This document shows, piece by piece, positions 1 through 9,977 of a DNA stretch of 21,111 nucleotides. This DNA comes from a virus, in IMG/VR virus record IMGVR_UViG_3300034523_000037, positions 1 to 21,111 of that record; one strand, written 5' to 3'. A program made the position numbers and the translations under genes. Under the pieces are notes generated by a model. The model was not told the DNA's origin and did not search any database. It worked only from the letters and a program-made list of their open reading frames with translations. Numbering within the stretch: position 1 is the first letter of the stretch; every line of letters begins with the position of its first letter.

Positions 1-567
1 CGGTACGGATGGCGCCCACATAAGCTTGCCACCACCATAGGTGCGGCCGGGGTGATATGACTGAAGATCAAGGATTCGGGTCGAGTCTTTGAGCTGCGCA
101 CCAATTTCCTTGATGGACGCGATGGTCACGCTGGAACGACCAATCAGCGCAGCGCCGAGGGTTGGATCTGAGACGCTTGATAGTTGCTGTCGGAGCGGAT
201 TATCGGCTCTATCAGTAAGCAGGGCCTGGTCTGCCGCCCAATTCCCACCAAGCGTCAATGGGAAGTTGGCGGGCAGCTTTACGCTGTAAGTGATTCCGGC
301 TCTATCGACCAGTTGCGTAGGCCTCGAAACCGTAAGGGCAGCCCCGTCCACATAGGACAGATGGACTGTTTCGAAGCCTGAACCTTGTAACATCTGCCGC
401 CATTCATTTTCAGCGCCAGCCCAGGTTAGGCGGTCAACGCCCAATCGGTCCTTCTCTGAGAAATTTGGAGAGGTGACAAATTTATCAAACACCTGGGTGT
501 TGTCGTGTAGGTCCCGCGGATCATCCGACCCATTTGGCTCAACAGGGTTGCTAGTGTTGTATCGCAT
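1..567 (-). CDS. Tailspike / tail fibre protein, N-terminal part (runs off left edge)
   Basis: An open frame of 189 codons starts at an ATG at 567 and continues without a stop to base 1, so the C-terminal part lies outside the window. A good ribosome binding site (GGAGACAGC) sits just before the ATG, directly after a terminator that closes the J-like gene. The N-terminus, MRYNTSNPVEPNGSDDPRDL, resembles the virion-anchoring head of many Pseudomonas phage tail fibres and tailspikes. Near the edge, residues about 170-186 (SYHPGRTYGGGKLMWAP) resemble the linker that leads into right-handed beta-helix tailspike domains, which bind and often cleave surface polysaccharide. The position after the central tip gene fits a receptor-binding protein. 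Whether it is a depolymerase, an esterase or a plain fibre cannot be decided from this fragment. Confidence 0.8.
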   Translation of the reverse strand, partial: MRYNTSNPVEPNGSDDPRDLHDNTQVFDKFVTSPNFSEKDRLGVDRLTWAGAENEWRQMLQGSGFETVHLSYVDGAALTVSRPTQLVDRAGITYSVKLPANFPLTLGGNWAADQALLTDRADNPLRQQLSSVSDPTLGAALIGRSSVTIASIKEIGAQLKDSTRILDLQSYHPGRTYGGGKLMWAPSVP

Positions 568-623: not shown

Positions 624-3347
624 TCAAGCCGGCGGGAAGTTGTCGTCGTCCATGTAGACGCGTTCGTCGTAGTTCACTGCAGTCACGTTGCAACTGACGG
701 TACCGCTTGGGTTCACTTCCTTGATAAGCGCCGGGTAGCAGAATGTCGCCTTCGGACCGAACTGCAGCACAGGCGCGTCCATAGCGCTGTCTAGCACAGG
801 TGTGAAATCCAGGCTGCTGATGGTCATGCGATAGTCATCGATGCGGGTTGCGACGTACGGACCGGAGGCGCTGCCGTCTTTCCGTCTCAGCGCCACCCAG
901 TGCTCGACGCCAGGCGACCAGATGAGCCGCTCGGAGGACACCAGCATTTGCTGACTTCCCAGCGGCGCGAAGCCCTTGAGCATTGCGCTCTGCCCGTACC
1001 CTGGGGTGGTGTCGCCGAGCAATGCGTAGTCGAGGTACCCGCTGTTCAGGGCATCCAGTTCGGTCGAGAAGCTGTAGCGCTTGCGTTGATAGACCTGCTG
1101 CCGGCGCCGGCGCATGCCGTAGCGCCACGCACGAGTTTCATCGCTGATGCCCTCGACCTTGATCTTCTCAGTGCGTAAGCCGAGATCCCCTGGCAGTCGG
1201 CACTCAATCGTCTCTATCTGCCAGGTAGTCGAACTGAGGTACTCAACATCCACGCCATCAAAGTCATCGGCGGTGACGTGCTCAGCCTCGCGCTTCAGCG
1301 GCTTGGTCATGACCTGTGGGTTGAACAGCGGTGAATACTCATGATCGAAGCCCGGGCCGCGCTTCTCATCCCTGACGGGCCGCAGAAGGCCTCTGTCAAT
1401 GGTCAGCTCCGCAAATCCTGCTTGTAGGGCCTCGATCATGCAGGCCTTCACCGTGCTGGCCGACTCGATAGTCCTGTCGTAGTAATCACCGCGGGCGGTC
1501 CAGATGGCTTGCAGGCGGTCCAGTTCATCCAGATCGATGTCTGAATTTCCATCCTCGACCGAATAGCCGACGCTCTTGGCGATGTAGCCAAACCAGGCGG
1601 AGATATCACGAGTTGGCTCAGGATCAGTCCAGGCCCCGCCTCTTCGCGTTGGTAGCTTGCGTGTGGCGATGCAGGAAACCTGACTCTCGGACTGCGAAGC
1701 GATCCGGTTGCCGCCTTTCACGCGCAAGGCGATAAGGGTGACACCGTCATATTTGACCGGCGCGTCCAGGTTGGACCGCAGGCCATACCACTGCACGGTG
1801 TTTGCATCCTGGGTGCTAGTCGACTTGGCGCCGATCCTGCGGATGCGCACCTCGGGCCTGATGTCCGTGGGGATGTTGGTGTAATTGGTAAATCCGAGCT
1901 GGTCGAGTGTGGCAGCCGAGTAAATCTTGGTTTCCGAGGTCCAGGCGCCTGCCGTCGTGATATCGCGGTACTGCATCTCCACGGTCACTTCCAGCGCGTT
2001 CAGATCACCCTTCCCGCCCACGTGCACCAAGCCTTGCGGGAAAAAGATGTCCCAAGCGATGCGCCGCGTGGTCGTACCTGGCGGGCAGGCGGGGAACGGA
2101 CCTGACCAATCCCCCTCTTGGGTGGATCCGTCCAGGCGCAACACAGCCGTCGCCGTGGTCAGCGCATCAAACCCGGGCCAGGTTGTGTCGGCTACGCCAG
2201 CGGCATTGATCCGCTCAACCGTAATGGCCGCCGTGCTCGCCGCCGTGATGCGGTACCGCAGCCCACGGATGCCTATGCCCATCTGCAGGGAAGATCCGAT
2301 CTGGAGTCCCGTGGCCGGGCCGCCGTCCTGCCAATCCAGGGTCATCTCGTCTGGCGCGCCGCCAACGCCAGCCGTGAAGCTTGCCACCGTGTAGTTGCCG
2401 GCATTTGCGCCGGTGATCTCGATAGGCATGCCCACGTATGGCGCGATCTGGTCAAGATTGCCGCGAATGACATCTCGTCCTGCCCCACCTTCAATAACAT
2501 CGTAGGGGTACGAGACTTCAATACGCACCAGCATCCCTGCCGCCCATCCTTCCGGGAACTGGCCGGCACCGGCCGGCACGGTTACCGTGTAGCCGGAGAA
2601 CTGGAAAGACTGGGCCGTGGGCACCGGATTGACGGCGTAGGTTGCCTTCAGCTCGATGCCAGCGGTACCGGTGGAGGTAGCCCCAACTTCGGGAGCTGAA
2701 TGCCACCACCTGGCAGCCGTTTCGTAGGAAAGATCGTCGCCTGGCTGATAGATCACCATCTGCGCGTCTGCGCCCAGGGAGATCACCGGTGTATCACCGA
2801 TCAGCACGCTGCTCAATGGAATGTCATAGGTGCCTCGGCCAACGACCAACAACATCTCGATCCACTGGGAGCGTGGATCGTCGAAATACCGATTCGGCGG
2901 CAGGGCGTAATCCGGATATGGGCGCTGACGTCCAGCGATTTCGCGGATAACGGAGTTGAGCTTTACCTGGTTGCCCTTGACCGTGGCCAGACCCAGGTCA
3001 TTACCGCGCTTCGTGTTGCCCCCGCTGTTCAGCGAAGGCATTTTTGGCATCAGCGCGCCCAGCACCGCTTTGGCACCGAATACCAGCGCCAAAGTGATCG
3101 AAAACGGGTCGGTGCCTTTCGGCTCCCGGTAGATTTCGACACGATCCTCGGGCCCGAACTCAATGGTCGCCCACTGGGTCGGTAGCGCACGCTCTCCGTT
3201 TACGAAGACGCTCAGCGGCAGCGCCGAAGGCTCTACCTGCTCCGGTAGGCCGTCAGCGCGAAACCAGACCAGCAGGCTCTGCCGAGACGTGACCTCATAA
3301 GTCTCGGTCGGGAACGGCACGATCTTGTTGGGGAAGATTGCGATCAT
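624..3347 (-). CDS. Central tail tip / host specificity protein (lambda gpJ-like)
   Basis: A protein of 907 residues, large and acidic-polar, placed last in the tail-tip block as lambda gpJ is. gpJ-type proteins form the tail tip hub and carry the host-range determinant. Residues about 129-190 (KLNSVIREIAGRQRPYPDYA, then the PPNRYFDDP and MLLVVGRGTYDIPLSSVLIG stretches) look like the conserved N-terminal tip-attachment region. The middle and C-terminal parts are rich in beta-like and fibronectin-like patches. The first about 100 residues hold a VFVNGERALP...EDRVEIYREP pattern and then a hydrophobic run (about 84-100), reminiscent of a gpI-like assembly domain. The ATG at 3347 overlaps the stop of the NlpC/P60 gene as ATGA; a longer in-frame extension upstream lies inside that gene and is rejected. 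Lambda J is 1132 residues, so this one is somewhat short. Confidence 0.87.
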   Translation of the reverse strand: MIAIFPNKIVPFPTETYEVTSRQSLLVWFRADGLPEQVEPSALPLSVFVNGERALPTQWATIEFGPEDRVEIYREPKGTDPFSITLALVFGAKAVLGALMPKMPSLNSGGNTKRGNDLGLATVKGNQVKLNSVIREIAGRQRPYPDYALPPNRYFDDPRSQWIEMLLVVGRGTYDIPLSSVLIGDTPVISLGADAQMVIYQPGDDLSYETAARWWHSAPEVGATSTGTAGIELKATYAVNPVPTAQSFQFSGYTVTVPAGAGQFPEGWAAGMLVRIEVSYPYDVIEGGAGRDVIRGNLDQIAPYVGMPIEITGANAGNYTVASFTAGVGGAPDEMTLDWQDGGPATGLQIGSSLQMGIGIRGLRYRITAASTAAITVERINAAGVADTTWPGFDALTTATAVLRLDGSTQEGDWSGPFPACPPGTTTRRIAWDIFFPQGLVHVGGKGDLNALEVTVEMQYRDITTAGAWTSETKIYSAATLDQLGFTNYTNIPTDIRPEVRIRRIGAKSTSTQDANTVQWYGLRSNLDAPVKYDGVTLIALRVKGGNRIASQSESQVSCIATRKLPTRRGGAWTDPEPTRDISAWFGYIAKSVGYSVEDGNSDIDLDELDRLQAIWTARGDYYDRTIESASTVKACMIEALQAGFAELTIDRGLLRPVRDEKRGPGFDHEYSPLFNPQVMTKPLKREAEHVTADDFDGVDVEYLSSTTWQIETIECRLPGDLGLRTEKIKVEGISDETRAWRYGMRRRRQQVYQRKRYSFSTELDALNSGYLDYALLGDTTPGYGQSAMLKGFAPLGSQQMLVSSERLIWSPGVEHWVALRRKDGSASGPYVATRIDDYRMTISSLDFTPVLDSAMDAPVLQFGPKATFCYPALIKEVNPSGTVSCNVTAVNYDERVYMDDDNFPPA

Positions 3348-3739
3348 TGTCGGTCCCGATAGTAGATGACGGTGTTGTGGTCGCGCTGCCACTGTGAAAG
3401 CGGCAGGCACCGGGCGCCGCGCGCCGGGTTGATCTCAAGAACCTTGAGCCGGCCACCAACCTCAACAACCAGGGCTACGTGCACGCAGATCAGGCCGCGC
3501 ATTACCGCAGCGATCGCCCCAGGCTCTGGTTGGCAAACCTCCATGTGCTCGGCTTCGGCCCGATAGGCCCGGGTGAACTCCTTGGGCTCGGTATTGCGAA
3601 CATGCCCCCAACTGGGCAGCAGACGCTTGCCCAGGTGACGATGGCGCGCGTCCCGCACCAACCCCCAGCAATCGAACAATTCTGGACCGCGAGCGCCGTC
3701 CTCATACCTGCAGGACAGGTATTTGTTGATCCATTCCAT
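3344..3739 (-). CDS. NlpC/P60 family tail peptidase (lambda gpK-like)
   Basis: A protein of 131 residues with the NlpC/P60 cysteine-peptidase signature: FDCWGLVR with the catalytic Cys at 24, then HVALVVE with His 87, then EINP with a polar third residue (Asn 104). In siphophages this K-like protein is a tail-tip component thought to cut peptidoglycan peptides during tip assembly or DNA entry. The ATG at 3739 is preceded by AAGGG at good spacing, and the preceding DUF1833 gene stops only 11 bases upstream. The open frame extends another 32 codons upstream, but that part overlaps the DUF1833 gene and is not typical of the family. Lambda gpK has an additional Mov34/JAMM domain; it is missing here, leaving only the NlpC half, as in many phages of Pseudomonas. 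Confidence 0.88.
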   Translation of the reverse strand: MEWINKYLSCRYEDGARGPELFDCWGLVRDARHRHLGKRLLPSWGHVRNTEPKEFTRAYRAEAEHMEVCQPEPGAIAAVMRGLICVHVALVVEVGGRLKVLEINPARGARCLPLSQWQRDHNTVIYYRDRQ

Positions 3740-3750
3740 AGGGATTGCCC

Positions 3751-4248
3751 TTAGAGGTAGGTTAGGCCAGGTACGAACTTGGTGGTGTAAAGCGCGCGTG
3801 GCCAACCGGTGCCGATGACATCGAAGAAGCCGCACTGGAGAGTTGCCTGGTTCTGCTCGAACGAGTCGCTGTCCACACTCATTCGGTACGGCCTATCGCA
3901 TGGACTTGAGGTGTCGCTGGCCAGGTAGACCCGGTAAATCGCGGTAACTCGGGCGTTGCCGTCCAGGGCCTGGTCAGCTTTGCGCTGGACCTCCCCTGTT
4001 GTGTTGTCCACTGCAAACGCCAGGGCCTGATTGCCCTTGTTGTTCTTCTGCGGTAACGCAATGCCAATGTTGGCTGCCGTAAAGGTTAGTAGGCGCCCGT
4101 CTTCTGTGCCGCAGATCCGATCCTTGAAGCCGTTGCATATCAGCACCGGCGCATCCCAGGCCGGGCAGGCAATCTCCAGAGTGCGGACGAACGCCTCTTT
4201 ACCGCCCGACGCAATGGCCTCGCGATAGGTGTCTTGGAGTATCGTCAT
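3751..4248 (-). CDS. DUF1833-type minor tail protein (tail-tip, gpL position)
   Basis: A protein of 165 residues that I recognise as a DUF1833-type phage protein (YREAIAS...EIACPAWDAPVLICNGF opening, then beta-rich sequence). It lies immediately upstream of the K-like and J-like genes, where lambda has gpL, so it is probably a tail-tip structural protein. It has five cysteines (28, 38, 46, 117, 139), three of them clustered near the N-terminus. The ATG overlaps the stop of the LamG-like gene by four bases (ATGA) and has no clear Shine-Dalgarno motif, so translation is probably coupled to the upstream gene. Family assignment is from memory of sequence pattern and position. Confidence 0.8.
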   Translation of the reverse strand: MTILQDTYREAIASGGKEAFVRTLEIACPAWDAPVLICNGFKDRICGTEDGRLLTFTAANIGIALPQKNNKGNQALAFAVDNTTGEVQRKADQALDGNARVTAIYRVYLASDTSSPCDRPYRMSVDSDSFEQNQATLQCGFFDVIGTGWPRALYTTKFVPGLTYL

Positions 4249-5408
4249 GTCGTGATCGCTTGCAGTTCTGAGGCACTGAGGCGGTAAGGGTAGTACGCGA
4301 CCTTGCTGATATACCCGTTAAGACCGTCCGTAGCAATTCCCCGCGACCCTATACTAAGTCTTGATACGGTTGGAACTTCCCCGATTATACTCATAAGAGA
4401 CTGGGTACCATTCGCAGATGCTTGAAAATCATTTCGCCTGTACGCGGTGGCCTGTTTCATAACTGCCCCAACACCAACATTAGCTAATGCCGCACTGAAT
4501 GATATGCTTAGGTCATCCGCATATACCTGACTATTTACCGAACCTGCGGCGCTGCGCCAATTCGCGATACGGCCTCCAGAACCTACCGTGTTGCCAAGGC
4601 TGCCATGGAACGTCTGACCTCCGTATGAAACAGCCTCGGTATATAATGTGCCTTCACCCTGTCGCAACCATGGTGACATTTCATTAACCCATGCCACATC
4701 ACTGTTGCGGGTTGCCGAAACAGAAGTTGTAGCAATGTAGGATGTAGCACCATGACCAATTTCGTATTGCATTCCCCACAACAGATAGGTATTGCCAGCG
4801 ACAGCAGGTTGGCTGATTACGATCCAGTTTGCAGCGGCAACAGTGGTAGTTGCTTGGGCGGTCATTGAGCACCTAAACCAACCGTTGAGCAATTTTTCTA
4901 TTCGCGCTACTGTGCCTGCGCTACCGGAACCAGTTACGACAAACGAACCATTTCCAGATACGTCAAAGTTAACTTGGTTAGTTCCACCAAATGCTGCCGG
5001 GTTCATTTGCAGCTGGGCTATGCTTTGGGTTCCTGCCTTTACATAGCAACTCACGGCATATACTACACCAGCAGTCCATGCAATGTTGGTACGATATAAA
5101 TAGTTGGATCCGCTTGGGTCTGACAGCGTAATAGTTTGCGCTGTATTAGTACCATCAGGGGCAGTCGATGCACCGGAAACTGTGGTGCGAGTCTTGACCC
5201 AAGCAGCGTTGCTGAAATCTTGAGAATAAGTAAACGCATTGGTGCGCTGTGGCTCCATCTTCAGTCCAAGCAGCGCACCAGTAATAGGGTTGTATTCGAA
5301 TCGAGGCTCATTCACAGCAGCCTGAATCATCAAGCCGGCGCTGTTGAAATACCTAGCTACCGATGCCCTTGAAAAGGAGATCAGGTCGCTGAACGCTTTA
5401 GCTTCCAT
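4245..5408 (-). CDS. LamG/carbohydrate-binding putative receptor-binding tail protein
   Basis: A protein of 387 residues. The N-terminus (FSRASVARYFNSAG...AVNEPRFEYNP, then MEPQRTNAFTYSQDFSNAAW) matches the pattern of phage head-spike/tail proteins that carry a carbohydrate-binding-like jelly-roll domain (about 50-235; see GWFRCSMTA and YLLWGMQYEIG). The C-terminal third (about 240-387; EGTLYTEA, FQASANGT, LSIGSR, then NGYISKVAYYPYRLSASELQ) looks like a concanavalin A/LamG fold. Such proteins usually bind surface sugars, so I infer a receptor-binding or adhesion role. Sampled lines of this gene are 42-55% GC, against 55-63% for neighbours, suggesting separate acquisition. It is nonetheless fitted perfectly into the operon: its start overlaps the upstream stop by 11 bases behind a GAGGG motif, and its stop overlaps the next start as ATGA. 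Confidence 0.78.
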   Translation of the reverse strand: MEAKAFSDLISFSRASVARYFNSAGLMIQAAVNEPRFEYNPITGALLGLKMEPQRTNAFTYSQDFSNAAWVKTRTTVSGASTAPDGTNTAQTITLSDPSGSNYLYRTNIAWTAGVVYAVSCYVKAGTQSIAQLQMNPAAFGGTNQVNFDVSGNGSFVVTGSGSAGTVARIEKLLNGWFRCSMTAQATTTVAAANWIVISQPAVAGNTYLLWGMQYEIGHGATSYIATTSVSATRNSDVAWVNEMSPWLRQGEGTLYTEAVSYGGQTFHGSLGNTVGSGGRIANWRSAAGSVNSQVYADDLSISFSAALANVGVGAVMKQATAYRRNDFQASANGTQSLMSIIGEVPTVSRLSIGSRGIATDGLNGYISKVAYYPYRLSASELQAITT

Positions 5409-6075
5409 AGGCCCTCACCAATACCAGGTAGTCGTTTGGCTGCCCAGCCTTGTAGACCTGGGCCATGAAGTCGAGAATGAGCGATGGGCTATCAGCTCGC
5501 ACGACGTTGTAAACGGCATGCTGCCCTCCCTGTGTTTCGTCTGCTTCGATAGTGATTTGCAAGCCAGGGCGCATGGTTCTGATCGCTGCCATGGCCGCCG
5601 CGTAGGTCGGGTAATCGAAGTGCATCAGCGGCCATTCGCGGTTAAGCGCAAGGTCGATGATGTTCATCATGAACCAGTACTGCGGGAACTCCTCCCAGCC
5701 CGGATTCATCAGTGGCGGCTCACGCAGCTCAAGGACCGCCGAAAATTCCCAGCGGCTGACCTGCACCAACGACGGCCCAGTGTAGTGACCCGTAAACCTG
5801 CACTCGTATTCCTTGAAGCCAATAGGAGTCAGGAGGGTGGCTTTGAACCACTCAACCCCCTGCACCAGCTCGCGGGCGTACCACCCTTGGAAGAACGCCA
5901 TCTGGTTGCGGTCGCAGTTCCATTTGGCGTTGATCAGGTACGGTACTTCATCGAAATTCAGCCGCTGCCTGGCCCTCCCAGACTGCATCGATGTCCGCAT
6001 CATCGGGTCGACAGGGGTGTCCAGCGCGTATCCATCCTGCAGCGGTAGCGGCAGTTCTGCTGGGTATTCGATCAT
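5398..6075 (-). CDS. Minor tail protein following the tape measure
   Basis: A protein of 225 residues encoded directly after the tape measure, with an ATGA start/stop overlap. Its position corresponds to lambda gpM, a distal tail component. Recognisable features are a proline-rich opening (MIEYPAELPLPLQDGYALDT), a central tryptophan-rich beta region (KWNCDRNQMAFFQGWYARE, then GVEWFKATLLTP and YECRFTGHYTG), and WEFSAVLELREPP. This pattern recurs in siphophage and prophage tail modules, where it is generally annotated only as a virion or minor tail protein. No enzymatic motif, signal peptide or membrane segment is visible. The role is inferred mainly from synteny. Confidence 0.75.
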   Translation of the reverse strand: MIEYPAELPLPLQDGYALDTPVDPMMRTSMQSGRARQRLNFDEVPYLINAKWNCDRNQMAFFQGWYARELVQGVEWFKATLLTPIGFKEYECRFTGHYTGPSLVQVSRWEFSAVLELREPPLMNPGWEEFPQYWFMMNIIDLALNREWPLMHFDYPTYAAAMAAIRTMRPGLQITIEADETQGGQHAVYNVVRADSPSLILDFMAQVYKAGQPNDYLVLVRAYGS

Positions 6076-9000
6076 GATCCCACCGGTTGAAGTCCGAATT
6101 TGGTACTGATGGCCTGAAACACCTGGGTTTCACCCATAATGCTGGCCACCGTCATTTGCAGCGTCACCGAGCCGTCGTCGTTCGTGGTTTGCGTAACCTT
6201 CCCTGGATTCGACTTGTCCTCGATCAAGTTGACCGTAAGTGCCATTCCCCCACCGTTCGAGCCCGATGACGAGGCGCCGCTAGCTGTGACTCGCTCGCCA
6301 GAGTTGATCGCCTCCAGTAACGCCCGGTTCTTCCGAGTCGCGGCAGCATTGACCACGAACTCGCCATTGCTCAGGTTTGCCGGGATGCTGTCTGAAGTAG
6401 ACGATCCTGGCCCCCGGACGTAGCCACCTGTCGCCAGATTTAGGCCGACAGACTGGATATTTCCAACGATGGAGGCGGTAGCGGCTGCGACAGTTGCCAT
6501 AGCGGCAAGGTTGAGCGGGAACGGGTTGGCAGCAGCCATCGCGATACCGGTCTGGATGCTGATCAATGACTGAGCGATGGAGGCAGCCTTCTGGACTGCA
6601 AACATTGCCTTGTAGGCCGTCGACTGCTCGCCAGCAAAGGTGCCGACAATACTGGTCAGGTCTCCGAACATCCCTTCGGCCAACGACAGCCTGGCAACAT
6701 TCATCGCCTGCTCATTGCTCAGCGTATCTTCCTTCCGCTTCGCCTCAAGCTGCCGGATCGCCTCGTCATACTGGGCAGCGTTTTCCACCTCAAGTTGGCG
6801 ATACTGCTGATACATCGCAATGCGCTGGTCGTACCACGCTTGCAACTGCTCATTTTCCTGAGCCATTCGCGCAATTTCGCTGCCGGCCCCGCCGATTGAA
6901 GCGTCCAGATTCGAGGAATTTGGCTTTCCGCTGAATATCTGGTTGTTGATCGATGCATTGATGCCGGCCTGGGCTATTTTCCCAGCTGGCCCCTGAATCT
7001 CGGTCGCCGCCGCCTTCTGCGCATATAGCTCAGCAAGGCTCTGTCCTTTGACGTACTGGTCGTTGATCTGCTTGAGTCGAGCAAGGTGTTCGTCCTGCCC
7101 TTGAACAACTTCGGCATACTTCAGGGACGACTGAGCAAGCGCCTCGTTGTACTGCTCCTGAGTGATCTTCCCTTTCGAAAGCAGAAGCTCCAGCTGGGAC
7201 TGGCGCTCGACGTACTCTTGCAGGGCGAACTTTGCAGGCTGAGCGGCCTTGTAGAGGTTGTCGAAAGCTGTTTGGGCCTCGTTCAGCTTGCTTGATAGGC
7301 CTTTCTGCCCGGTTGGCGTCTTGGTCTTAGCGGTGGTGTTCCCATCGATCTGGTCCAAAACCTCTTGAACCATCTCGGCAACCGTCTTGGTTTTTGCCGA
7401 TGGTTGCGATTGTGCAGCAGGCTGGGCCTGACCAAAGGTGAGAAGGCTAGCACCTTGCAGGTTCTGCTTTGGCTCATATTTCTCTACCAGTGAAAGGCCT
7501 TTTGCGTACCGGACAGTCTGATCAATGACCGTCTGGATGGCGTCAACCTGGCGCTTGGCACTCGACTCTGCGTTCTCGGCCATGGTCTTCATGGAGCGCC
7601 CTTGGCTCTCCATTTGCGACTTGATGGCCTCCGAGGCGGTGATCGATGCGGTCAGCTGCACCCGCAGCCTATCCTGATCGGCCTTCTTGCCTTCCTTGAC
7701 GGCCTCCTCGTACTGCTTAAGGAGATCAGTCTGCTCGCCGATCAGCCGGGCATACTCGACCTGCTGACTGTTGAATCCAGTCTTCGCTGCAGTATATGCA
7801 GCTTCTTGGGCGGTATTTGCCCCGACCAAGTCACGGGTCTGAGTCAGTTGGGCGATGTACTTATCCCAGGCCTGCGCACCACCACCAACCGCAGCCGCAG
7901 AAGCCTGCTGCGCGCTCGCCAGAGATTTCGCTGAGCTGGTAGCTCCGTCCATTGCGGTCTTACTGCGATCCAGCAGGCGGGCGTAGTCGTCAGCCTTCTG
8001 GCTGCTGGCCGAGTATTCCGCTCCGATCTTGACCAGCTCATCGCGGTACACGCCGGATATCTGAGTATTGCTGGTCAGCCAACCGGTAAGAGAGTCGAGC
8101 GTCCTCTGCCCGTTCCTCACCTCTTCGAACATGCGCTTGAAGGTGTCTGCAGACTCCACGCCGCTGGCACCAAGCGAATTCAGACCATCAAAGGCGCGGG
8201 TGAAGTACTCATCGAGCGCGCTGCTAGCATCCTTGGTCGCGTCACGTTGCGCTTCCATCCATTTCGCAGACTGGAATCGCTGCTGTTCGGCGCTCAGCTG
8301 CTTGAATTTGGCGATCGAGTCATCAAGCGTCAGATTCTGGTCGATCAGCGATTGAGTAGCGCTGTCGGTGCTTGTTGCGAAGTAGATGGCCGCGCCTGCT
8401 GCCACAGTGATAGCCGTGGTGAGGAGGCCAATTGGCCCGCCGGCTAGCGCCATTAGACCTGCTGAAGCCCGGGCGCCAAGCGACTGTGCGGCATTCAGGC
8501 GCACCTGCGCTGCGTTTTGCGCCACGACAGCAGCCGTGTCGGCCTCGCGCAGCGTTGTCAGCCTGGCCTGGCCGGCTGCAAGCTGACCCTGAATAAGCAC
8601 CTCTTGCCCAGCCGCCTGACTAAGGGCGCGCTCTGCCGCCGCTTGCTGCAATGTGATCGCAGCCTCTGTCCTGCGAATTTCAGCCAGCCGGGTAAGGGAC
8701 TGCTGGCGACCAACATCATTGATCTGGGCTTGGAGGCGCTGAGCCTCCAGTGCGCGATCTGCGGCCAGCTGCTGTTGAACTGCCTGAAGTTGGGCCACGG
8801 TATTGGCCTGGGCAGCTCTTGCGGCTGATGTCTCTGCCAGGGATCGCTGAGTCACAGCTACAGCTGCGGCCTCTTCAGCCATAGCCTTACGCGAAGCCTG
8901 CGCAGCTGCGGCTGTCGACGCCACCTCTGCCTGTTTCTCTACGATAACCTGCTGCTGCGTGGCTGCGATTTCCGCATACCTTGCCTTGGTAGCTGCAGCA

Positions 9001-9977
9001 AGAGATACGACAAGTCCGGTACCGACCCTGGCAGCATATGCGCCCGTGATCGCCATCAGTGCATCGGTGTTCTCGGCTACGGTCTTCAGGCCATCGCCAC
9101 CGACCGCCACCAGACTTCCGAGAGCATTGGCAATGCTCTGGATACCTATGACCACTTCAGGCTTGGCGAGCGAGCTGGCCAGGGCGTCTACCGAGCTCAC
9201 TACCGGGTCTACGTTGATCTGACCGATTGCAGCAAGGAAGTTGTTCTTCAGCGCGACAGAGGCCTGCTCGAACCGACGCGGCATCTTGTCCAATTCACTG
9301 TTCAGCGATGACAGCGATTTTAGGAGCGCGTTGGTGACCACATCAGATGTGATTTTGCCGTCAGCTGCCATCTGGCGGATCTGGCCGTTGGTTACGCCCA
9401 GATACTCCGCTAGGGCACGAGTGATTCGCGGGCCTTGCTCCATCACAGAGTTCAGTTCTTCGCCGCGCAGAGTGCCAGATGCCAGGCCTTGAGACAGCTG
9501 AATCGCTGCGTTCGAAGCCTCCTGCATCGTCGCGCCGGAGATCACGAAAGCCTTGTTCAGGGCGTCCGTGACGTTCAGCAACTGTTCCTGGGTGAACCCT
9601 GCGCCGCGAGTGGCGTTAGCCAAGCGGGCGTACAGGGACACGGTAGACTCAAGCGAGCTGCCGGTGTTGTTGGCCATGGCCAGCAGCTTCTGGAACGACT
9701 CGCTTGCGTTCTGGGATGAAGTGCTTACCAGTGCCAGCGAGCCCTGCATGGACTTGAACGAGTCGGTGAGGCGCAATACCTCACGCGTCACAGCCCCCAC
9801 ACCAAGGGCGGCAAGTGCGCTGCCAGCGGCGCGCGCGGCAGTTCCTAGCCCGCGAACATTGACCGTAGCCTCGCCGCCGGCATCACTCAAGCTATTGAGG
9901 CTGGTCCGAAGCTGATCGATCTGCTGCCGTGCGTTCCGCGAATCGATGACTATCGCGAGGCGGGATTCCTGAGCCAT
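6072..9977 (-). CDS. Tail tape measure protein (lambda gpH-like)
   Basis: At 1301 residues this is the longest gene in the window. It starts with a tape-measure type N-terminus (SRLAIVIDSRNARQQIDQLR, a Gly/Ala-rich stretch, then VTREVLRLTDSFKSMQGSL and LMANNTGSS-type repeats; the GLASGTLRGEELNSVMEQGP segment at about 165-185 is very characteristic of lambda-type tape measures). Residues about 340-490 are an Ala/Gln-rich coiled coil, about 505-535 form a hydrophobic segment, and about 1120-1180 a second Ala-rich hydrophobic region. The C-terminus carries the common GGYVRGPGSSTSDSIPANLS and NGEFVVNAAATRKN motifs (about 1181-1215). Using the known rule of about 1.5 angstrom per residue, the tail would be near 195 nm. 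The ATG follows GGAGAAAGGC and a terminator. It is the scaffold that sets tail length and is later ejected into the cell. Confidence 0.93.
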   Translation of the reverse strand: MAQESRLAIVIDSRNARQQIDQLRTSLNSLSDAGGEATVNVRGLGTAARAAGSALAALGVGAVTREVLRLTDSFKSMQGSLALVSTSSQNASESFQKLLAMANNTGSSLESTVSLYARLANATRGAGFTQEQLLNVTDALNKAFVISGATMQEASNAAIQLSQGLASGTLRGEELNSVMEQGPRITRALAEYLGVTNGQIRQMAADGKITSDVVTNALLKSLSSLNSELDKMPRRFEQASVALKNNFLAAIGQINVDPVVSSVDALASSLAKPEVVIGIQSIANALGSLVAVGGDGLKTVAENTDALMAITGAYAARVGTGLVVSLAAATKARYAEIAATQQQVIVEKQAEVASTAAAAQASRKAMAEEAAAVAVTQRSLAETSAARAAQANTVAQLQAVQQQLAADRALEAQRLQAQINDVGRQQSLTRLAEIRRTEAAITLQQAAAERALSQAAGQEVLIQGQLAAGQARLTTLREADTAAVVAQNAAQVRLNAAQSLGARASAGLMALAGGPIGLLTTAITVAAGAAIYFATSTDSATQSLIDQNLTLDDSIAKFKQLSAEQQRFQSAKWMEAQRDATKDASSALDEYFTRAFDGLNSLGASGVESADTFKRMFEEVRNGQRTLDSLTGWLTSNTQISGVYRDELVKIGAEYSASSQKADDYARLLDRSKTAMDGATSSAKSLASAQQASAAAVGGGAQAWDKYIAQLTQTRDLVGANTAQEAAYTAAKTGFNSQQVEYARLIGEQTDLLKQYEEAVKEGKKADQDRLRVQLTASITASEAIKSQMESQGRSMKTMAENAESSAKRQVDAIQTVIDQTVRYAKGLSLVEKYEPKQNLQGASLLTFGQAQPAAQSQPSAKTKTVAEMVQEVLDQIDGNTTAKTKTPTGQKGLSSKLNEAQTAFDNLYKAAQPAKFALQEYVERQSQLELLLSKGKITQEQYNEALAQSSLKYAEVVQGQDEHLARLKQINDQYVKGQSLAELYAQKAAATEIQGPAGKIAQAGINASINNQIFSGKPNSSNLDASIGGAGSEIARMAQENEQLQAWYDQRIAMYQQYRQLEVENAAQYDEAIRQLEAKRKEDTLSNEQAMNVARLSLAEGMFGDLTSIVGTFAGEQSTAYKAMFAVQKAASIAQSLISIQTGIAMAAANPFPLNLAAMATVAAATASIVGNIQSVGLNLATGGYVRGPGSSTSDSIPANLSNGEFVVNAAATRKNRALLEAINSGERVTASGASSSGSNGGGMALTVNLIEDKSNPGKVTQTTNDDGSVTLQMTVASIMGETQVFQAISTKFGLQPVGS

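Follow-up and report, generated by a model that had tools for sequence, protein, structure and literature searches.

Gene order and base composition of the locus

What is the gene that separates an upstream tail gene from the DUF1833-K-J genes at the tail tip of this phage, and did it arrive there as an acquired second receptor-binding module, as the initial annotation proposed? The window, i.e., the whole 21,111-nucleotide stretch analyzed here, is a 21.1-kb virus record (IMGVR_UViG_3300034523_000037) whose terminase region is 80–85% identical to that of Pseudomonas phages PseuP_222, Cruim01 and PS-1. The gene occupies 4245..5408 of the minus strand, starts with ATG and encodes a protein of 387 residues (P0001). 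Along the minus strand, genes encoding a tape measure protein (TMP; 6072..9977; PF20155, 1.3e-59) and P0002 (5398..6075) precede it. It is followed by genes for a DUF1833 protein (3751..4248; PF08875, 3e-20; phrog_396), an NlpC/P60-type K protein (3344..3739) and the TipJ/J tail-tip hub (624..3347; NF040662, 1.9e-125), the starts of the latter two being set at inner ATG codons, and then by the first 189 residues of a tailspike that the contig end truncates (1..567, minus strand), a second host-binding device. The DUF1833 protein is baseplate hub 1, equivalent to gp16 of Shigella phage Sf11, and its gene forms the downstream border of what we call the slot. Both the position of P0001 as an extra gene and its interlocking with neighbors were confirmed: the 5' end shares 11 nt with the P0002 gene and the 3' end shares a 4-nt ATGA with the DUF1833 gene.

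Base composition of the gene is distinctive. P0001 has 49.6% GC. The 17,628 overlapping segments of 1161 bp that lie outside the gene average 61.0% (SD 1.7), and none falls below 55.8%. Third-position GC is 45%, versus 57–87% in the 18 other tabulated gene intervals, and the 600-bp flanks have 59.0 and 57.8% GC. The low GC originally noted thus holds, with a wider spread than the 42–55% first given: the 19 60-nt ruler lines lying fully within the gene range from 42 to 58%.

Domain family and predicted fold of P0001

P0001 was originally described as a LamG/carbohydrate-binding protein. A Pfam search returned no family at E 0.1, hence no curated LamG/ConA sequence match, and LamG was ruled out as the family and kept as a predicted fold. 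The domain identified by sequence is instead the GTA/phage head spike fiber domain, covering residues 51–235 (4704..5258, minus strand; NF048003, 141 bits against a cut-off of 36). Consistent with this assignment, the PDB profile match of P0001 is the head spike fiber Rcc01080 of the gene transfer agent RcGTA (6tb9; E 2.5e-21, residues 7–265), and the tail protein family phrog_5939 matches the full-length protein (1.4e-68).

The lectin-like part of the original description was borne out by structure prediction. An AlphaFold2 model built from 25 aligned sequences (pLDDT 88.9) has a predicted jelly-roll fold, with CBM40, pentraxin, laminin-G and galectin matches. The best structural matches are baseplate proteins of phages Pa193 and E217 (VIA Z 21.2 and 18.6, respectively), after which VIA ranks CBM40 sialic-acid-binding modules (Z about 16, 156–159 residues) and pentraxins, with an aligned range of 47–387. 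Foldseek returned CBM40 6er2 (TMt 0.60) along with laminin-G domains and galectins. In BFVD the two-domain fold is matched (TMq up to 0.84) by 'ConA-like' proteins of uncultured phages, a source that names no function. The ConA/LamG-type fold is probably located mostly at residues ~239–387 of the model; we drew the ConA/CBM40/LamG-like C-terminal domain at residues 236–387 (4248..4703, minus strand), a boundary inferred from secondary structure.

The N-terminus of P0001 is short and conserved (M-x-x-K-x-F-x-D-L/I). In the window it reads MEAKAFSDLISF and lacks the Ile/Leu-Gly repeat peptide used for RcGTA head attachment, and we accordingly treat P0001 as a member of the NF048003 domain family and not as a head spike. 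Three viral contigs carry three adjacent ORFs with the spike fiber domain (L025, 3376–7152; L028, 5905–9640; L031, 2930–6665).

The upstream protein and its extension

The upstream gene, first labeled a minor tail gene, can be named more precisely. P0002 (225 residues; phrog_384) is a distal tail protein (DTP; gpM-like) with a C-terminal extension. Its model matches Sf11 gp17 (9occ_C) with Foldseek E 2.4e-6 and VIA Z 13.6, and a profile search found the same chain at E 0.0019. VIA also gave Z 9.1 to lambda tail-tip chain 8iyk_E, which we take to be gpM, and Z 6.3 to T5 Dit pb9. Model pLDDT is 64 overall and 76–89 over residues 51–120. A predicted C-terminal helix at residues 137–147 (5635..5667, minus strand; ALNREW motif; local pLDDT <50) is the putative counterpart of the tailspike-adaptor helix of Sf11 gp17.

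Beyond this helix, homologues of P0002 end in two ways. Those at empty sites stop at about residue 149–151, just past an N-R-E-W-P motif, or in some cases at 171, with the helix motif repeated. Those at filled sites continue for 76 residues or nearly so. This extension (residues 150–225; 5401..5628, minus strand), a proposed docking domain, is present only with a fiber gene: all 11 viral contigs that hold it have the fiber, and none has the extension without it. The extension has no convincing family match (best E 0.089 in PHROGs and 0.4 in the PDB profile search) and phage records gave no match at E 1. Relationship to the Sf11 tailspike (P0009, Tail_spike_N domain) or to Sf11 gp17 was considered and dropped (hhalign E 0.56 and 0.61, respectively), as was a VIA match of residues 148–225 to the collagen XVIII trimerization domain (Z 5.3, 49 residues, rmsd 2.9), too weak and within a low-confidence stretch. 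Residues 196–225 have pLDDT <50. Because the extension is without a recognizable relative and poorly modeled, its proposed docking role rests on co-occurrence. Sequence co-variation between extension and fiber is moderate (r 0.55–0.67 over 66 non-independent pairs), and contigs L006 and L011 have extensions just 56% identical with a fiber middle that is 90% identical.

The terminal helix motif is nearly repeated in the 171-residue DTP forms (L013, L014, L017, L067, L076 and L088), giving two adaptor-like helices in tandem that are possibly two docking sites; where readable, these forms pair with a different tailspike N-terminus. On the other side of the P0002 gene, the TMP (6072–9977) is extremely mosaic next to the conserved DTP-to-J block, its N-terminus being only 21–33% identical in most contigs whose DTP core is 82–99% identical.

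Occupied and empty sites

Viral contigs were scanned with P0002 and with DUF1833, which yielded 28 distinct contigs. The slot holds a fiber gene in 11 and is cleanly empty in 15; one contig (L083) has a tailspike-like 674-residue ORF (877–2901) with pectin-lyase and tail-fiber matches, and one (L066) is too short to score. In the empty contigs the P0002 homologue runs directly into DUF1833, with a gap of -4 to +11 nt where measured, the direct junction that the initial annotation had suggested looking for in relatives. Thirteen loci from genome contigs comprised one filled (Pseudomonas alkylphenolica, L087), nine empty, two with a tailspike and one without a recognized DUF1833. The two tailspike loci are from Tolumonas (L093, 7376–9376; L097, 4769–6661) and place a Tail_spike_N tailspike in the slot between DTP and DUF1833; L093 has no tailspike after J. 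Among 398 Pseudomonas genomes, a P0002 relative occurs in 24 and P0001 in one. In L084 (P. aeruginosa phage vB_Pae_CF124b) the slot (5016–5522) contains small ORFs that include one encoded on the opposite strand.

The empty sites uphold the view of P0001 as an added module, although not as a single inserted gene. As read from gene content, the insertion exceeds the fiber gene and always brings the 76-residue extension of the upstream protein. When 10 occupied viral loci were examined, five also had a companion ORF of ~79 residues ahead of DUF1833 (L006, 7849–8088; L008, 7816–8052; L009, 7843–8079; L010, 7834–8070; L011, 6250–6489), which belongs to phrog_18574, a family of unknown function, in the two cases scanned (L006 and L009).

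Allele exchange and history of the cassette

Comparison of the window with sister contig L002 places sharp borders within the fiber gene. DNA identity is 90–100% across P0002 and the first fiber codons, drops to 35–78% from about codon 18 until about 10 codons short of the fiber stop, and then returns to 97–100%, delimiting an allele-exchange segment at 4276..5355 (minus strand). Divergence was read from identities of 60-nt blocks and of proteins, as DNA alignment percentages are inflated by gaps. Across the filled contigs compared, the two fiber domains are 28–69% identical to those of the window versus 82–100% for DUF1833, making P0001 the most diverse protein in an otherwise conserved DTP-to-J block. 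Exchange also extends to the DTP. L003 and L016 have fibers that are 99–100% identical on DTP cores only 48% alike. Relative to the window, L016 is 93–96% identical in the extension and DUF1833, 66–69% in the fiber and 48% in the DTP core, with the changeover near the terminal helix.

Low GC had been taken as a sign of acquisition. The 11 other fiber alleles in the same slot have 52.5–60.8% GC with flanks of 58.5–62.7%, and fiber GC overall runs from 49.6% (window) to 60.8% (L010). Low GC is thus a property of the window's allele, and recent acquisition on this ground was ruled out by same-slot alleles reaching 59–61%. Sequence comparisons instead indicate that the cassette is old and recombining and not a fresh arrival.

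Three trees, with 28 rows for DUF1833, 27 for J and 28 for the DTP core, were used to map filled and empty states. The genome loci included were L087, L088, L089 and L091; L007, L017, L019, L066, L075, L078 and L083, being near-copies, short contigs or distant loci, lie outside the trees. The best tree for each protein has three filled/empty changes; supported branches alone force one change for DUF1833, one for J and two for the DTP core. One origin of the occupied state was set aside, as a single occupied clade is rejected on the J tree at p 0.0003 and on that of the DTP core at p 1.4e-5, but not on that of DUF1833 (p 0.21). On these trees the cassette has been gained, lost or exchanged, probably more than once.

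Co-occurrence of tailspike and fiber genes

The proposal that P0001 is a receptor-binding-type module additional to J and the tailspike agrees with its predicted lectin-like fold and with gene content. Wherever sequence after J is visible in a filled locus, a tailspike is present (10 of 10, the window included); L005 breaks off too soon for this count, in which the L006/L007 pair is unscored. By eye, the type of DTP end (single or duplicated helix motif) pairs with the type of tailspike N-terminus in 21 of 21 readable contigs. When relatedness is considered, this coupling reduces to two independent pairs on supported branches, without significance. The comparison covered 24 groups, of which L005, L080 and L093 have no tailspike start; PS-1, D3 and distant Pseudomonas loci were left out.

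Fused counterparts in other phages

A relative of the P0001 domain is fused to the DTP in Sf11. The gene order is gp18 (TMP), gp17 (DTP), gp16 (phrog_396/DUF1833; PF08875 E 8e-4), gp15 (small, opposite strand), gp14 (hub) and gp13 (tailspike). Sf11 gp17 joins a DTP core (phrog_384, residues 1–156) to an NF048003 domain (residues 217–403; 88 bits, cut-off 36), with phrog_5939 also matched at E 2.8e-12. The P0001 profile aligns to gp17 residues 185–405 (hhalign E 9.9e-14), and BLASTP gives 28% identity over 172 columns (E 3e-7). According to the Sf11 structural report (PMC12724387, PDB 9occ), gp17 assembles into a hexameric DTP ring; a helical adaptor at residues ~129–152 receives the N-terminal helices of the tailspike, gp13, and salt bridges link Glu residues of the DTP to Lys19/Arg16 of the tailspike. 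The authors give the function of the large C-terminal gp17 appendage as unknown. A literature search combining 'head spike fiber' with 'distal tail protein' returned only the RcGTA paper, and one on DTP, tailspike, adaptor, Pseudomonas and siphophage placed the Sf11 paper first (PMC12724387); neither found a link in print between the Sf11 appendage and spike fibers.

The same presence/absence occurs in cis in a second phage lineage. Kagunavirus K1ind1 and phage Ivi have proteins of 466 and 461 residues, respectively, at the DTP position before DUF1833 that carry the spike fiber domain, whereas in Akira, where the DTP core shares 95.5% identity with that of Sf11, the protein ends at 157 residues without it. 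In Klebsiella phage KP591P1 (L137, 248–712), the CDS is annotated from 428 and DTP homology begins at 248; the record start looks too late.

Proposed role of P0001 and alternatives

We favor, with reasonable confidence, a model in which P0001 is a polysaccharide-binding tail-tip fiber seated on the DTP ring beside the tailspike and docked in trans via the P0002 extension, with extension and fiber constituting an exchangeable cassette. The two-domain, beta-rich P0001 would be a virion protein carried by a hexameric ring of P0002. The DTP core and terminal helix would dock the tailspike trimer as in Sf11, and the 76-residue extension past the helix would act as a group-specific docking domain that holds P0001 in trans by its short conserved N-terminus. 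The ring would then serve two host-binding devices, with the tailspike held by the terminal helix and the spike fiber by the extension, and P0001 would bind host surface polysaccharide reversibly before the tailspike and J commit. Between DTP and DUF1833, extension plus fiber are gained, lost and recombined as a unit, and fiber alleles are swapped between conserved ends. The cassette with its borders, the empty sites, the allele swaps, the domain family and the Sf11 fusion are read directly from sequence, while the position of P0001 in the virion, docking through the extension and sugar binding are the likely, inferred parts of the model.

The same domain occurs on the RcGTA head and in E217 and Pa193 baseplates, and domain identity alone does not fix the position of P0001. 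P0001 might be a tail-tip receptor-binding fiber docked elsewhere, such as on J, on DUF1833/hub 1 or on the tailspike, with the extension an unrelated hitch-hiker in the slot. The moderate co-variation of extension and fiber leaves room for this, docking on the extension being our inference, yet we consider it unlikely: the extension never occurs without the fiber in the 11 contigs, Sf11, K1ind1 and Ivi have the domain covalently on the DTP-position protein, and L016 has extension and fiber together on another DTP core. A structural baseplate piece resembling E217 gp45, with a fold that holds another fiber instead of binding sugar, would fit the best PDB structural matches and the role of gp45, which anchors the tail fiber (PMC10329688). 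We give this a slim chance, as 15 of 28 relatives do without P0001 and its domains have the diversity expected of a receptor binder when set against DUF1833. Low GC and rarity (1 of 398 Pseudomonas genomes) would fit a recently acquired cargo gene, or moron, with no virion role; starts and stops interlocked with neighbors, matches to tail-protein families, and occurrence in 12 loci, where alleles reach normal GC, make this highly improbable.

The favored model assigns a so far unannotated gene to the tail-tip ring, makes the 76-residue extension a candidate trans-docking domain and proposes an identity, as a spike fiber of the capsule-binding type, for the Sf11 DTP appendage. Sharp allele-swap borders suggest how such phages may change the polysaccharide-binding part and keep the rest of the tip constant. 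A broader reading, to which we assign about even chances, is that siphophages of Gram-negative hosts generally use the DTP C-terminus, just past the tailspike-adaptor helix, to plug in polysaccharide-binding modules. The extension would then be an undescribed trans-docking domain that allows fiber alleles to swap with the DTP core untouched, and one ring would carry two host-binding systems. At least four modes would then exist: empty (D3, PS-1 and Akira), in cis (Sf11, K1ind1 and Ivi), in trans on the extension (the window and occupied relatives) and with a tailspike in the slot (Tolumonas).

Comparison with known systems

Siphophages D3 and PS-1 have the same tail-module order around the slot as the window, but the slot is empty, with no fiber gene from the DTP homologue to DUF1833. 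RcGTA Rcc01080 is of the same NF048003 family and is likewise a separate protein with a short N-terminal region ahead of the domain. It differs in sitting on capsid pentamers via base protein Rcc01079 and the Ile/Leu-Gly repeat peptide, as described in PMC7296036, whereas P0001 is encoded within a tail-tip operon. RcGTA head fibers bind particles to the host capsule (PMC7296036, PMC10218006). E217 gp45 and Pa193 gp46, the top PDB structural matches, have a similar domain and differ from P0001 in being contractile-tail baseplate subunits of about 500 residues.

Sf11 gp17 is a close parallel, with the same DTP core family, the order TMP-DTP-DUF1833-hub-tailspike and a spike fiber domain after the adaptor helix. 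In Sf11 the DTP polypeptide itself contains the spike fiber domain, with no ConA-like domain at the C-terminus; in the window a gene of its own encodes the fiber, and 76 further residues extend the DTP. By analogy, the Sf11 fusion suggests where the fiber of the window sits and what the gp17 appendage does, different phage lineages using the same DTP position in cis and in trans.

Evolved Dit proteins of skunaviruses and Bacillus phages offer a functional parallel. In these proteins adsorption is promoted by a carbohydrate-binding module inserted into the distal tail protein, and among skunaviruses only some relatives have the module (PMC10688798, PMC9128512). The window shares a carbohydrate-binding-type module added to a DTP, a DTP core fold (P0002, by predicted structure) and close relatives free of the module (15 of 28 empty). 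The evolved Dit module lies inside the Dit polypeptide; in the window, which belongs with phages of a Gram-negative host, P0001 is a separate overlapping gene, encoded in trans beside a C-terminally extended DTP. By the same-polypeptide definition P0001/P0002 is not an evolved Dit, and by analogy the pair would act like one in trans.
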